Assembly (NCBI RefSeq): GCF_018118585.1
Contig: NZ_CP069421.1
Coordinates: 248,001 to 312,000 of the forward strand
From: Aristaeella lactis
GTDB taxonomy: Bacteria; Bacillota; Clostridia; Christensenellales; Aristaeellaceae
Reading direction: 5' to 3'
Length of the DNA: 64,000 nucleotides
Under the pieces are notes generated by a model. The model saw nothing but the letters and a program-made list of their open reading frames with translations, did not search any database and was not told where the DNA came from. Within the stretch, counting starts at the first letter, position 1; every line of letters starts with the position of its first letter. The translations under genes were made by a program, and so were the position numbers. Shown one piece after another: positions 4,489 to 55,274 of this stretch.

Positions 4489-4540
4489 CCATTTCCGGAG
4501 CAGGTACGGGACAGCATCCCGTTCCCGCACACCAACTGAA

Positions 4541-4636
4541 TATGCAGGGGAGCTTGTGATGACAGGCTGAGAGGAAGGTTTCACCTTCGACCCTTAAACC
4601 TGATGTGGGTAATGCCGCCGTAGGAAGCTGAAGAAC
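4541..4636 (+). ncRNA. TPP riboswitch (THI element)
   Basis: The diagnostic THI-box blocks occur in order: AGGGGAGC, the GGCTGAGAGG pyrimidine-sensing segment at about 4566-4575, a variable hairpin (AAGG-TTTC-ACCTT), GACCCTTAAACCTGATGTGG and the closing GTAATGCCGCCGTAGG-AAGC. It lies upstream of thiamine synthesis and transport genes and is followed by an intrinsic terminator, so TPP binding should favour early termination. Confidence 0.96.
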
Positions 4637-4648
4637 GGATACGTTTGT

Positions 4649-28247: not shown

Positions 28248-28511
28248 GTGCCTGTTTGGGGGTGTGTTCCTTAGGTGTTGGTAAGTGAAATATGCCTTCG
28301 GCATGTGAAATGTTTGCTTCGCAAACGTGAAATGTGCCTTCGGCACGTGAAATATTGGCCTTGCGGAGTACCGCAAGGCCAATGTTACAGTTGCTGGATA
28401 CCGGGGAACCAGGGGGTGCCTGTTTTGGAGTACGTTCCTTAGGTGCTGGTAAGTGAAATACGCCTTCGGCGTGTGAAATATTGGCCTTGCGGTTGCCGCA
28501 AGGCCAATGTT
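28248..28511. repeat. modular palindrome repeat in the convergent gap, two units
   Basis: The 293-bp gap between convergent genes holds two related units (28248-28386 and 28416-28511) that both start GTGCCTGTTT and reach TTGGTAAGTGAAATA. Within them the word GTGAAAT alternates with short palindromes: TATGCC-TTC-GGCATG, TTTGC-TTC-GCAAA, GTGCC-TTC-GGCAC and ACGCC-TTC-GGCGT. Each unit ends in a 12-13 bp stem, TTGGCCTTGCGG with its complement. The palindrome arms differ between copies but keep pairing. The end stems could also stop transcription from both sides. Confidence 0.85.
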
Positions 28512-51327: not shown

Positions 51328-51924
51328 TTAACGGGAGTAGAACTCGACGATCATGTTCTCCTGAACCTGCAGGTCGATATCCTCGCGGGTGGGAAGAGCG
51401 TTGACGGTGCCGGTGAGGTTCTGAGCGTCGAAGCTGAGCCACTTCGGGATCAGCGTGCTTGTACCTTCACGCAGGCTCTTGAACATCTCCATCTCTTCGC
51501 TGCGCTTGCGCAGAGTGATCTTATCGCCGACCTTCACCTGATAGGAGGGGATGTCGACTTTCATGTCATTGACCCGGATGTGGCCGTGGCAGACGATCTG
51601 ACGAGCCATGCGGCGGGTCTTGGCCAGGCCCAGACGGAACACCACGTTGTCCAGACGCTGCTCCAGCAGGCGGAGCATGTTGTCACCGGTGATGCCCTTC
51701 ATGTTGGCGGCCTTCAGGTAGTACTTGTGGAACTGCTTTTCCAGGACGCCGTATACGAACTTAACCTTCTGCTTCTCCTGCAGCTGGGCGCCGTATTCGG
51801 AGACCTTCTTGCGGCGGTTTCCGCCGGGATTGCGGGTGGATTTTTTATTGCCATAGCCCATAACGGCCGGGGAAATGTCGAACTTCCGGCATTTCTTGGC
51901 AATCGGATCTTTATTAACTGCCAT
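51328..51924 (-). CDS. rpsD: ribosomal protein S4 (uS4)
   Basis: 198 residues with the S4 RNA-binding domain (QRLDNVVFRLGLAKTRRMARQIVCHGHIRVN). The N terminus lacks the zinc-binding cysteine cluster; only one cysteine (KKCRKF) remains, so it is the C-minus form. In other bacteria S4 represses the operon that contains it. That gives a ready candidate for the binding partner of the long rpsM leader. Confidence 0.97.
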   Translation of the reverse strand: MAVNKDPIAKKCRKFDISPAVMGYGNKKSTRNPGGNRRKKVSEYGAQLQEKQKVKFVYGVLEKQFHKYYLKAANMKGITGDNMLRLLEQRLDNVVFRLGLAKTRRMARQIVCHGHIRVNDMKVDIPSYQVKVGDKITLRKRSEEMEMFKSLREGTSTLIPKWLSFDAQNLTGTVNALPTREDIDLQVQENMIVEFYSR

Positions 51925-51942: not shown

Positions 51943-52344
51943 TTACACGCGACGGCGTTTGGGCGGACGGCAACCGTTGTGAGGAATGGGCGTCACGTCC
52001 TTGATCATGTTCACATCCAGACCGGCGGCCTGAAGGGAACGGATAGCGGCTTCGCGTCCGGAACCGGGGCCTTTGACATACACTTCAACCGTGCGCAGAC
52101 CGTATTCCATAGCGGCCTTGGCAGCGGTCTCAGCGGCCATCTGAGCAGCGAAGGGCGTGGACTTCTTGCTTCCGCGGAAGCCCAGACCGCCGGCGCTGGC
52201 CCAGGAAAGAGCATTGCCCTGGGTGTCGGTGATGGTCACGATGGTATTGTTGAAAGAAGAACGGATATGGGCAGCGCCGCGCTCAACGAGCTTCCGTTCG
52301 CGGCGTTTACGCGTAGCCTTCTTCAGCTTTTGCTTAGGTGCCAT
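51943..52344 (-). CDS. rpsK: ribosomal protein S11 (uS11)
   Basis: 133 residues: [62 protein letters not shown] and the basic [12 protein letters not shown] end. All are diagnostic for uS11. The spacing to rpsM (56 bp) and rpsD (18 bp) fits one operon. Confidence 0.98.
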
Positions 52345-52400
52345 TGATTTTACTCCCTCCGTATTATCCGCATAAAAGCGGAATCAATTCAGTCAGAGAC

Positions 52401-52778
52401 TTACTTGGTGGCTTTCTTCTTGCCGGCGATGGTCTTCTTGGGTCCCTTACGGGTGCGGGCATTCTGTTTGGTGTTCTGTCCGCGAACGGGAAGACCATGA
52501 CGATGACGGACGCCACGATAGCAGCCGATTTCAATCAGACGCTTGATGTTGAGCGAAACTTCACGGCGAAGATCACCTTCAACCTTCAGGTTGTGCTCAA
52601 TGTATTCACGCAGCTTGCTGATTTCGGTCTCGGAGAGATCCTTTACCCGTGTGTCGGGGTTCACACCGACTTCCGCGAGCATCTTCTGCGAAGTGGTCAG
52701 GCCGATGCCGTAGATGTAGGTCAGGCCGATCTCAACGCGCTTTTCTCTGGGCAGGTCAACACCTGCAATGCGTGCCAT
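52401..52778 (-). CDS. rpsM: ribosomal protein S13 (uS13)
   Basis: 125 residues beginning [21 protein letters not shown] and containing the helix-turn-helix part [14 protein letters not shown] and the [22 protein letters not shown] tail. It is the first gene of this operon; rpmJ and infA, which often precede it, are not present here. The GGAGG lies 13 nt before ATG 52778, longer than usual, and a structured leader of about 260 nt lies upstream. Confidence 0.97.
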
Positions 52779-53039
52779 GTTAAGTAATACACCTCCGTAT
52801 GTTGTTTGACCGTATGGTCAACCGGGAAAAGTTTTGTTTCGCATGGGGCGAGGCAACCCAACCAGGCACCGCGAAACTCGACTCCATGTTGGCTCCTGGT
52901 GAAAGCAGGCGCACAACAACACTGACGGACTGCTATGGAAGGTGCAGTCTGCCAGCGCCTAAAGAGACGGGGTTTGATTTCCCACCGGAACACCCGTTTT
53001 TCAACGGATGCAGCCGCCCGGTGGCAAACCAGGGCTAAC
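52779..53039 (-). ncRNA. structured 5' leader RNA of the rpsM operon, likely cis-regulatory
   Basis: The 260-nt leader can form, from its 5' end: helix A GGTTTG/CAAACC (53030-53025 with 52976-52971); helix B CCACCGG/CCGGTGG (53024-53018 with 52988-52982); inner hairpin CATCCGTT-GAAA-AACGGGTG (53010-52991), a GNRA tetraloop; helix D AGGCG/CGCCT (52960-52956 with 52911-52907) around a 12-bp hairpin with one mismatch (52955-52944 with 52933-52922); two crossing helices ACCAGG/CCTGGT and GTTTCGC/GCGAAAC; and TTGACC-ATAC-GGTCAA (52821-52806) before the ribosome binding site. No open frame or T-run is present. The role in ribosomal feedback is inference. Confidence 0.72.
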
Positions 53040-53045
53040 TTCGAC

Positions 53046-53074
53046 AGTTTATCACAAGGAAAGAAAAATGGCAA
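53046..53074 (-). promoter_or_regulatory. promoter of the rpsM operon
   Basis: On the minus strand TTGCCA (53074-53069) and TAAACT with TG extension (TGATAAACT; -10 at 53051-53046) are exactly 17 bp apart. Transcription would start near 53039, just where the structured leader begins. Further upstream (53080-53140) is very AT-rich. Confidence 0.72.
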
Positions 53075-53140
53075 TGAAAAATTCAAATAAAATCTTAAAT
53101 TATTATAAAATATGTTACAAAATAATTAAATCGAACAATT

Positions 53141-53171
53141 AAAGAAAAGCCGGGAGAATCATCTCCCGGCT
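53141..53171 (-). terminator. rho-independent terminator
   Basis: AGCCGGGAGA-TGAT-TCTCCCGGCT on the minus strand followed by TTTCTTTAATT. It ends the DUF2500 transcript and isolates the rpsM promoter. Confidence 0.9.
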
Positions 53172-53187
53172 GGACTGCATGCAGTTA

Positions 53188-53541
53188 TTATATACTGCGG
53201 ATAAACCCCTTATATCTTGTGCCCTGGTAGGTCAGACTGCCGCAGTCACCTTCGGTAAGCATACCGTAATCCTTTCCGAGTACAGGGAATTCGATGCGCT
53301 CCCTGTTTTCCAGTTCGAAGGTGACATAATACCAGGTACTGGTTGAACTGTCAGAACCGGAAACATCCTGTCGCTTTGAGACTATACGGGCATCGACGGT
53401 CAGAATAGGGGAGTTATTGTTTCTGGACCATCTGATGAGTCCGGAAATGATGATATAGAGAAAGATGATGACAATAACCCCTACAACACAATACGCAGCC
53501 AGTTCACCAGGCTCGATATAGGTGCTTCTTCCGAAACGCAT
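53188..53541 (-). CDS. DUF2500-type membrane protein
   Basis: A 117-residue protein with one helix (about 13-37) and a C-terminal beta domain in the DUF2500 pattern: SPILTVDARIVSKRQDV, then STWYYVTFELENRERIEFPV and GDCGSLTYQGTRYKGF. The family has no known activity. It is a paralogue of the gene at 53616-54068. GGGGGA precedes ATG 53541. Confidence 0.8.
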   Translation of the reverse strand: MRFGRSTYIEPGELAAYCVVGVIVIIFLYIIISGLIRWSRNNNSPILTVDARIVSKRQDVSGSDSSTSTWYYVTFELENRERIEFPVLGKDYGMLTEGDCGSLTYQGTRYKGFIRSI

Positions 53542-53615
53542 ACGATTTCCCCCTTAAGAACTGCTCAATCCTCCGGGCAGGTGCAGCATTTGCCTGACTG
53601 ACAGGAGAATATGGC

Positions 53616-54068
53616 TTATTCCTGTCTGTATTTCAGTTCCTGTATGGATTCCTCCTGCGCTGTTTCCGCATGACGGATGCTACGTTCAAAGCCTTTATAC
53701 CTTGTGCCCTGGAATGTCAGTTTGCCGCTGTCACCTTCAGCAAGCAGACCGTACTCCTTCCCGGAGACATGGAGTTCCTTTCTTTCGCCGTTCTCCATCT
53801 CGAAGGTGACGTAGTATGTGGTGCTGGATGTGGTATGGTATCCGTGAGCTCCTGTAACATCGCCTGCGTTCCCATGACGATGAACGGAGACATCTTCCCG
53901 CTTTGAGACAATGACTGCGTCAACGGTCAGAATGGGGGAATTGTTGTTACTGATCCAGGTTTTTGTTCCTGAAACGATGGCATATATGAATCCGCCGATG
54001 ACAAGCGCGGCAATCAGGACAAAGAAAAACTGGAAACCTGCGGGGGCTGAAGAAAAACCACTAAACAT
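53616..54068 (-). CDS. DUF2500-type membrane protein, paralogue
   Basis: A 150-residue protein with one helix (about 13-35) and the same DUF2500 core as its neighbour: NNNSPILTVDAVIVSKREDV, YYVTFEMENGERKELHV, EGDSGKLTFQGTRYKGFERS. It has a His-rich insert (VHRHGNAGDVTGAHGYH) between the first and second strands and a longer acidic tail. GGAGG precedes ATG 54068. Confidence 0.8.
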   Translation of the reverse strand: MFSGFSSAPAGFQFFFVLIAALVIGGFIYAIVSGTKTWISNNNSPILTVDAVIVSKREDVSVHRHGNAGDVTGAHGYHTTSSTTYYVTFEMENGERKELHVSGKEYGLLAEGDSGKLTFQGTRYKGFERSIRHAETAQEESIQELKYRQE

Positions 54069-54085
54069 CCGGGCGACCTCCCTCT

Positions 54086-54112
54086 GAAATCAATTCATAA
54101 TTCATAATGACA
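54086..54112. repeat. AT-rich heptad repeat
   Basis: CAATTCATAATTCATAATGA, the same word type as the other heptad sites. It lies 20 bp upstream of the DUF2500 start codon; nothing else is recognisable in 54113-54245. Confidence 0.7.
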
Positions 54113-54245
54113 GATGCCTGCAGCTATTCCTTGCTGCCAGGATCAGTATACTGAATACATATAGTTAAATAAATGTTTTATATGGAAAAATATACAGGGA
54201 TATTTCGCCGGAGCTGAGAGGGCAGGGAAAAGGACTGCCGGTTCC

Positions 54246-55274
54246 TTACTCTGCTTCTGTAAGTTTCTGATTGATCAGATCTATATAAACACTCCTGATA
54301 TGACTTCCGATTTCACACTCCCCGATGATTTGTCCCTTTGAATCGATGAAATAATTGGTGGGGAAAGCAGAAACCGGGAGCATGCTCTCTATTCCCTCCC
54401 AGGGAATGAGATTGATATAATGAACACCCTTCTCAGATAGAATATCCCTGGCTTTGCTGATCATTTCGCTGTTTACCGGATCACGGATATCCATTACAAT
54501 ACCGACAATCGCGACATTCTTTTCTTTCAGTTTCCAATTCCGGGTCAGCTTTTCAAGATCAGGAAGTTCAGATATGCATGGTCCGCACCAGGTGGTCCAG
54601 ATGTTCAGCATTGTCAGGGCATGACTTCCGAACAGATCTTCAGAATGAATCTCTTCTCCGTTAAGATCAACGGTTTCAAATATCACAGGCGGAAGGCTTT
54701 CTTTTCCTGGCTCGAAGAGACGGATCCGGCCGGGCTCCCTGCAGATTTCCACGAGGGATTCAAATTCCTGCTTTGATTCCGCGGACATCTTCCAGGCAAA
54801 ATCATATCCTTCCGGAATATACCGGATGTAGAAGTTGTGTTCTCCAGCAGAGCCCAATTCTTCAAAATACTCAACCTCGAATTGCTTTTTGTATTCAGGG
54901 TGGAGATCATCAAGGGTTTTTCCGTTGTCCAGACTCAATACTGTCAATAAGCACGGCGTTAAGCCTTCGGTAAGGGCATCCAGTTCAGATGAATAGGCGT
55001 ATTTGCTTTGGGTAATAAATTCGCTCTTTTCCTTTGGAACGGCAATATAATACAACATCGCCAAACGGACGTCTTCGTCAAGCCGTGTATCACATGCGAT
55101 CTGAAGCGTTCCGCTGATCTCTGAAGCGGGAGGCAGATCAATTTCAAAACCGGTTCCGGGAAATCTCAGCGTTTCCCGGGATGATTCGGAGGACGCGCAG
55201 ACGGGAGAAATGCCGCAGAGCACGATCAGTATCATGACCGGCAGGAGGCAGACTGCCTTACGAAGCTTCATCAT
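54246..55274 (-). CDS. secreted thioredoxin-like protein (TlpA/ResA type)
   Basis: A 342-residue protein with an N-terminal signal sequence and a C-terminal thioredoxin-like domain. The active site is WCGPC (NIWTTWCGPCISEL) near residue 240, and the cis-proline is in SAFPTNYFID. The N-terminal 170 residues form an extra domain with no motif I recognise. The site after CGISPVCAS suggests signal cleavage; a lipoprotein is possible since a cysteine lies near the cleavage region. It probably reduces or isomerises disulphides outside the cell. ATG 55274 follows GAGGA. Confidence 0.86.
   Translation of the reverse strand: MMKLRKAVCLLPVMILIVLCGISPVCASSESSRETLRFPGTGFEIDLPPASEISGTLQIACDTRLDEDVRLAMLYYIAVPKEKSEFITQSKYAYSSELDALTEGLTPCLLTVLSLDNGKTLDDLHPEYKKQFEVEYFEELGSAGEHNFYIRYIPEGYDFAWKMSAESKQEFESLVEICREPGRIRLFEPGKESLPPVIFETVDLNGEEIHSEDLFGSHALTMLNIWTTWCGPCISELPDLEKLTRNWKLKEKNVAIVGIVMDIRDPVNSEMISKARDILSEKGVHYINLIPWEGIESMLPVSAFPTNYFIDSKGQIIGECEIGSHIRSVYIDLINQKLTEAE

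Follow-up and report, generated by a model that had tools for sequence, protein, structure and literature searches.

A conserved structured core in the rpsM operon leader of Aristaeella lactis and related Clostridia, a candidate site of S4 autoregulation

The window analysed here is a 64,000-nt stretch of the Aristaeella lactis genome (contig NZ_CP069421.1, positions 248,001 to 312,000, forward strand) and carries a ribosomal protein operon on its minus strand. The first gene of the operon is rpsM, encoding S13, and the minus-strand reading frames that follow it are, in order, rpsK, rpsD, rpoA and rplQ. The presence of rpsD within this operon, as given by the sequence-only reading of the same DNA, is confirmed by its reading frame and by an S4 domain identified in Pfam; rpsK, rpoA and rplQ are named by recognition. 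The transcript probably starts near 53039, because a promoter-like site is located at 53074–53046. Sequence resembling this promoter was read by eye at the equivalent position in L002, L003, L005 and L006. Two adjoining DUF2500 proteins are encoded upstream of the ribosomal operon on the minus strand (53188–53541 and 53616–54068). A search of the whole window against Rfam also identified a TPP riboswitch (RF00059) at 4536–4643 on the plus strand (65.6 bits) and a Gut-1 RNA (RF01706) at 28283–28358 on the plus strand (70.6 bits), the latter belonging to an sRNA family with no established function. The features of the operon and its leader are as follows.

53046–53074, minus strand: predicted promoter, TTGCCA-17-TAAACT, in which TG precedes the -10 element, from a consensus scan (9 of 12 letters).
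52779–53039, minus strand: 5' leader (untranslated region) of the rpsM operon, approximately 260 nt, with a probable 5' end.
53018–53030, minus strand: 5' arm of P1, GGUUUG plus CCACCGG, from the fold, stem fit and covariation.
53011–53017, minus strand: 5' bulge GCGGCUG, 7 nt, near-invariant among the members found.
52991–53010, minus strand: P2, the apical stem, a hairpin with a GAAA loop, from sequence, fold and covariation.
52989–52990, minus strand: linker UU between P2 and the 3' arm of P1.
52971–52988, minus strand: 3' arm of P1, CCGGUGG, a GAAAU bulge and CAAACC, from sequence, fold and covariation.
52928–52949, minus strand: P3 hairpin GACUGC-ACCUUCCAUA-GCAGUC, the prediction also including a longer lower stem; 17 of the 18 extended leaders contain CCUUCC.
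52895–52909, minus strand: P4 hairpin CCUG-CUUUCAC-CAGG with a conserved loop; UUUCACC is present in 15 and UCACC in all 18 of the extended leaders.
52852–52863, minus strand: P5 region GG-UUGGGUUG-CC, conserved in sequence; GGGUUG is present in 17 of 18 extended leaders.
52806–52821, minus strand: P6 hairpin UUGACC-AUAC-GGUCAA, directly 5' of the Shine-Dalgarno sequence and variable in sequence among relatives.
52790–52796, minus strand: Shine-Dalgarno sequence GGAGGUG, invariant in alignment A4.
52401–52778, minus strand: rpsM (S13), first gene of the operon, with its ATG at 52778 and an S13 domain in Pfam.
51328–51924, minus strand: rpsD (S4), the proposed source of the regulator.

The sequence-only reading described this leader as highly structured and took the minus-strand RNA to be the folded species, and both statements hold. 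The minus-strand RNA from 52776 to 53039 folds at -104.3 kcal/mol (z -3.69), a value reached by one of 200 shuffles, whereas the plus strand over the same interval gives a z of -1.27 with 22 of 200 shuffles as good. The GAAA-capped hairpin claimed at 53010–52991 is exact, consisting of CAUCCGUU (53010–53003), the GAAA loop (53002–52999) and AACGGGUG (52998–52991), and it contains a single U-G pair (U53008–G52993) that would be A-C on the other strand. This hairpin, P2, is nested in a helix formed by CCACCGG (53024–53018) and CCGGUGG (52988–52982), which is extended outwards by GGUUUG (53030–53025) and CAAACC (52976–52971) to complete P1. The order of the core is thus P1, the 7-nt bulge GCGGCUG, P2, the linker and the returning strand P1', and in the window the GCGGCUG bulge lies 239 nt before the rpsM start codon.

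The same arrangement occurs upstream of rpsM in relatives, where the sequence-only reading expected the segment to be found. The rpsM gene was located in 105 of 120 genomes of the family and 94 of 98 genomes of the class; 103 of the 105 family genomes (104 loci; G054 and G104 omitted) and, with the genome of the window excluded, 89 of 93 class genomes (G132, G161, G169 and G207 omitted) were used. The best 80 of 584 named contigs were added, some of which duplicate sampled genomes with identical sequence (e.g. L220 and L040, L200 and L049). The closest of these best 80 is L195, titled Clostridiales bacterium, with 98% RpsM identity. The core is present upstream of rpsM in 79/103 family, 31/89 class and 20/79 named loci, the last drawn from the best 80 of the 584. 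With a wider geometry and a cut-off reached by 3% of shuffles, it is found in 79 family, 35 class and 21 named loci. Of the 176 GCGGCTG sites in the 450 nt before rpsM, 131 reach a stem score of at least 24, compared to 3.4% of 3520 dinucleotide-shuffled versions. Good fits are concentrated in the leaders, with 131 per 122,220 leader bases against 6 per 1,234,950 other bases of the same loci on both strands; the locus of the window is counted twice in the 131/176 and in the leader totals (L001 repeats L004). Of the 103 family leaders, 95 have GCGGCUG no more than 450 nt from the ATG; the invariance of the heptamer is partly by construction, because it also served as the search pattern for core sites.

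The bulge takes the variant form ACGGCUG in L015, and among the core members the linker 3' of P2 is short, often A or UU. Many members carry a CAUAUA-like element approximately 8–14 nt after the start of P1', which neither the window nor its nearest relatives have. The core is located between rpmJ and rpsM in some family and several class members, and in the clade of the window it lies 3' of its own promoter-like site. In the class sample, the median distance of the motif from the ATG is 103 nt. Two Alicyclobacillus contigs were also recovered, of which L246 fits with a score of 40 and L213 scores 23, just below the threshold. A search of a plasmid collection gave no match.

Other types of leader were observed upstream of rpsM. 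The class genomes L155 and L184 share a leader of the form GGAGCAGGGUCAGGC ... CCACUUU ... GGGUGAAAUUCUGCUCC, the first bases of which differ in L155; it is without the GCGGCUG core and contains GAAA. Another type is shared by L176 and L182 (CCUGUCUAUAUCAC ... GUGACGGAAGAUAGGAG), and a common AUUUUCCACU element is found in the long, core-less rpsM leaders of L197, L202, L206 (by title Candidatus Gallimonas caecicola), L216 and L231.

The conserved leader core is real, and its helices covary in homologous regions upstream of rpsM, as the sequence-only reading would require. A first alignment, A1, was set aside because the register shifted between linker types. A covariance model, R1, was built from 22 members. 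At E ≤0.1 its matches numbered 47 among the 100 family loci and 8 among the 89 class loci, counts that include the building sequences; R1 did not detect the leader of the window at E values up to 3. One hundred of the 131 core loci entered the second model search and alignment. Alignment A3 contains 74 matches, 73 of which are upstream of rpsM and on its strand; the remaining one (L010, 833–880, minus strand) does not lie in a leader and was retained in A3 and in the covariation test. The A3 covariation score is 0.811, compared to 0.216 for shuffled alignments (0 of 500 as high) and 0.066–0.209 for slid partners, and 90.4% of the cells are paired against 57.9% when shuffled. Among the five covariation measures, the number of pairs with changes on both sides (all 12) says little alone because the shuffled mean is 10.6 (27 of 500 as high). 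Fitting A3 to the structure biases it in favour of that structure, for which the slid and shuffled controls and the separate stem fit serve as counterweights. A further model, R2, built without the leader of the window, returns the rpsM leader as its best match in the genome of the window, at a modest E of 0.059, with the next match at 6.4. Under stricter filters, R2 gave weak matches in 24 of 249 genomes of the phylum, and the window's own genome is not among them. Only one of these matches is upstream of rpsM (L285), so the core is near background in the phylum and is not a general feature of it at this sensitivity.

In 18 leaders from the genus of the window and its close relatives, the core is followed on its 3' side by further hairpins. 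The P3 stem exceeds the shuffled 95th percentile in 14 of the 18, the P4 stem in 8/17 and the P5 stem in 10/14; a P4 stem was not found in one of the 18 leaders, nor a P5 stem in four, the window being among these four. In the window itself, P3 scores 29 against a shuffled 95th percentile of 17, and P4 scores 11, below its percentile of 13. Alignment A4 holds 15 of the 18 extended leaders (L003, L012 and L019 omitted). A kissing interaction between the P4 and P5 loops found no support when A4 was inspected by eye. Open frames cross the leader, but a coding leader was judged unlikely: the distance from the motif to the ATG is 240, 241 or 243 nt in the closest relatives, and these distances give no sign of a kept reading frame. 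As a separate observation, seven loci (L038, L039, L044, L050, L052, L199 and L201) have CCUGGGUUGCG after the core, a sequence reminiscent of the GGGUUG loop in the clade of the window.

The core tracks the presence of rpsD in the operon. Enough downstream sequence for this test was available at 132 loci, with too little at 141. All 49 checkable core-positive loci have rpsD in the operon, and the core occurs in 49 of 114 loci with rpsD in the operon compared to 0 of 18 without it (Fisher p 1.3e-4). The 18 are, by title, 17 Bacilli and one Synergistales metagenome-assembled genome, so that with 17 of the 18 negatives in Bacilli and the loci interrelated the association is not phylogenetically independent. 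The two Alicyclobacillus loci are within Bacilli, yet have rpsD in the operon, and therefore fit the S4 reading. A further 65 loci have rpsD in the operon but no core at threshold, which indicates that many Clostridia are without the core or use another element; among these 65, the upstream sequence of L025 and L196 is shorter than 10 nt, and in some others GCGGCTG is present with a fit below threshold. Because the core tracks rpsD in this way, S4 would be its likeliest ligand, judging from gene content. In E. coli, S4 represses the alpha operon by binding the rpsM leader, and in B. subtilis it binds the untranslated leader of its own mRNA, from a separate rpsD gene, and represses translation, according to a review (PMC10931766), which agrees with the E. 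coli precedent given in the sequence-only reading. The association fits S4 since the protein acts on the alpha operon in one species and on rpsD in the other. The same review (PMC10931766) notes that rpsD has stayed within the alpha operon in Clostridia, unlike in Bacilli, and treats the cause of this diversity as an open question.

The reading preferred here, to which we assign a probability of roughly 0.6, is that the leader of the window is a long variant of a clostridial ribosomal protein leader through whose core S4 represses its own operon. When free S4, the product of the third gene, exceeds 16S rRNA, it would bind the core of its own mRNA, comprising P1, the GCGGCUG bulge and P2. Once bound, S4 would stabilise a leader conformation in which ribosomes are kept from loading at the start of rpsM, and expression of the remaining operon would then fall through translational coupling. 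We infer S4 as the ligand, translational rather than transcriptional control, and repression as its direction. The hairpins P3–P5 may perhaps connect the core with a start codon that lies far from it, for instance through the CCUUCC loop and GGAGG, a suggestion that finds little support in the pairing data. Pairing between leader and Shine-Dalgarno sequence was no better than in shuffles (the mean z is -0.58 for the 18 extended leaders and between -0.03 and 0.26 elsewhere), by which it was ruled out as a general feature, and nested folds gave no consistent partner for the Shine-Dalgarno sequence. RNAalifold, unprompted, paired a segment of the P3 loop with the Shine-Dalgarno sequence in the extended clade at ordinary energies. 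Because the Shine-Dalgarno sequence is invariant, this pairing is without two-sided change, and in the extended clade it is a possibility suggested by the predicted fold.

The length (approximately 260 nt) and structure of the leader would also suit transcriptional control, whether through attenuation or through termination by Rho, in which S4 might act on RNA polymerase, and S4 can act as an antitermination factor according to a review (PMC10931766). The leader is without an intrinsic terminator-like site, the sole such site in 52000–54500 being at 53171–53148, upstream of the promoter-like site, and the motif lies nearer to the gene in the class sample. Transcriptional control is thus judged unlikely, and translational control is the simpler reading because no intrinsic terminator-like site is present inside the leader. 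The effector could instead be another product of the operon (S11, S13 or L17). The genes for S13 and S11 precede rpsD in the window, and GCGGCUG also occurs in the sense orientation at approximately 1523 of the own 16S rRNA, towards its 3' end, in a region near S11. This sense match is weak, since approximately 9% of all 7-mers occur in the own 16S rRNA on each strand. The core is also absent from the 18 loci that have rpsM but lack rpsD in the operon, and S4 is the named regulator of both the E. coli alpha operon and B. subtilis rpsD in a review (PMC10931766), so that a different effector appears improbable. It is quite improbable that the structure serves outside ribosomal protein control, as an element of mRNA stability or processing or as a site for a general RNA-binding protein, when its fits are concentrated before one gene relative to the rest of the same loci, its 7-nt bulge is kept in distant members, and operons without rpsD do not carry it.

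Positions 522–528 of 16S rRNA (CAGCCGC), in the 530 loop inside the S4 site, are exactly complementary to the GCGGCUG bulge, whose complement occurs also at 1459. The leader of the window complements its own 16S rRNA at approximately 466–472, 476–485, 505–512, 516–522 and 541–548, and with the bulge masked, antisense 7-mers cluster at 451–540. Across the 79 family and 51 other leaders, 451–540 is not the top region, and the number of shared 8-mers antisense to 16S rRNA, 12, does not stand out from the shuffles (mean 7.5, with 76 of 500 as high). That the leader might pair or compete with nascent 16S rRNA, so that the operon senses both free 16S rRNA and free S4, is accordingly considered very improbable. 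As an observation in its own right, the segments of 53040–52840 that are complementary to 16S rRNA (L275) cluster at approximately 466–548, in h17–h18. The own 16S h18 reads GCCCC-GGCUAA-CUACG and shares with the core a 5' bulge having GGCU between two helices. Mimicry of the h18 bulge was judged unlikely, as the P2 loops are often 3–4 nt and variable; a pseudoknot of the h18 kind is unlikely in the core because these loops are too short.

A search of the whole window against Rfam gave no match at the leader, in keeping with the earlier expectation that no unrelated RNA family would be found there at Rfam thresholds. Relaxed thresholds over 52700–53400 gave three weak matches, among them Alpha_RBS (RF00140) at 12.2 bits and an E of 3.5, below its gathering cut-off of 38. 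This weak match (52826–52746) covers the last hairpin, the Shine-Dalgarno sequence and the start of rpsM, and the core lies outside it. Twenty class rpsM loci gave no match at the gathering threshold; 15 family and class loci searched at E up to 10 gave seven matches, all below cut-offs, and the only related family among them was Alpha_RBS in L119 (21.6 bits, E 0.5). The core has what is generally expected of a ribosomal protein leader, a conserved covarying structure 5' of a ribosomal protein operon. A description of it was not found in the open-licence literature searched, nor in the available parts of PMC8040213, PMC6429828, PMC11109978 and PMC10085705.

The closest precedent is the S4 leader proposed from comparative genomics by Eckert and Weinberg (2020) for rpsM-rpsK-rpsD-rpoA-rplQ in Clostridia, which is described (PMC7247131) as having a conserved GAAA at its 5' end and an unclear rRNA mimicry. 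It shares operon, bacterial class and proposed ligand with the window, where additional conserved hairpins accompany the core and GCGGCUG is placed 239 nt 5' of the rpsM ATG. Compared by text description, the conserved 5' GAAA of their leader is not enriched 5' of the core here: in the 25 nt 5' of P1, GAAA is seen in 10 of 79 family leaders, against 9.8 on average in shuffles, and in 13 of 51 class and named leaders, against 9.7 (36 of 200 shuffles reach this number). By the same text comparison, their motif may have been drawn in another way or may represent a different type of leader, and the mismatch in GAAA is compatible with identity because their 5' end may be drawn elsewhere. S4 autoregulation is the most likely explanation in this lineage and was already proposed in general (PMC7247131); the present analysis adds the definition of the core, its association with rpsD and the long form with its added hairpins. 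For the clostridial-type S4-responsive leader of the sequence-only reading, a regulatory leader unlike that of E. coli is well supported, and the case for S4 as its effector is circumstantial, coming from rpsD at 49/49 checkable core-positive loci and from the same proposal in PMC7247131.

Among the known S4 leaders, the E. coli pseudoknot (Alpha_RBS) has the same operon position and probably the same regulator. The B. subtilis leader is likewise bound by S4 on its own mRNA but precedes a separate rpsD gene (PMC10931766), and the Bacillus-type rpsD leader has a conserved GUAA that imitates rRNA (PMC7247131). GTAA is absent from the last 263 nt before rpsM in the window, and GUAA is not enriched 5' of the core in the family, class and named leaders. 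The core provides a handle on S4 control, since it covaries across the class sample, precedes the operon and is found only with rpsD, and the long form would show how additional hairpins build on a compact core that is distant from the start codon. The core would represent a further leader architecture alongside those of E. coli (the pseudoknot) and Bacillus rpsD and the remaining S4 leaders that have been proposed, and comparing these architectures may show how one protein recognises unlike RNAs.
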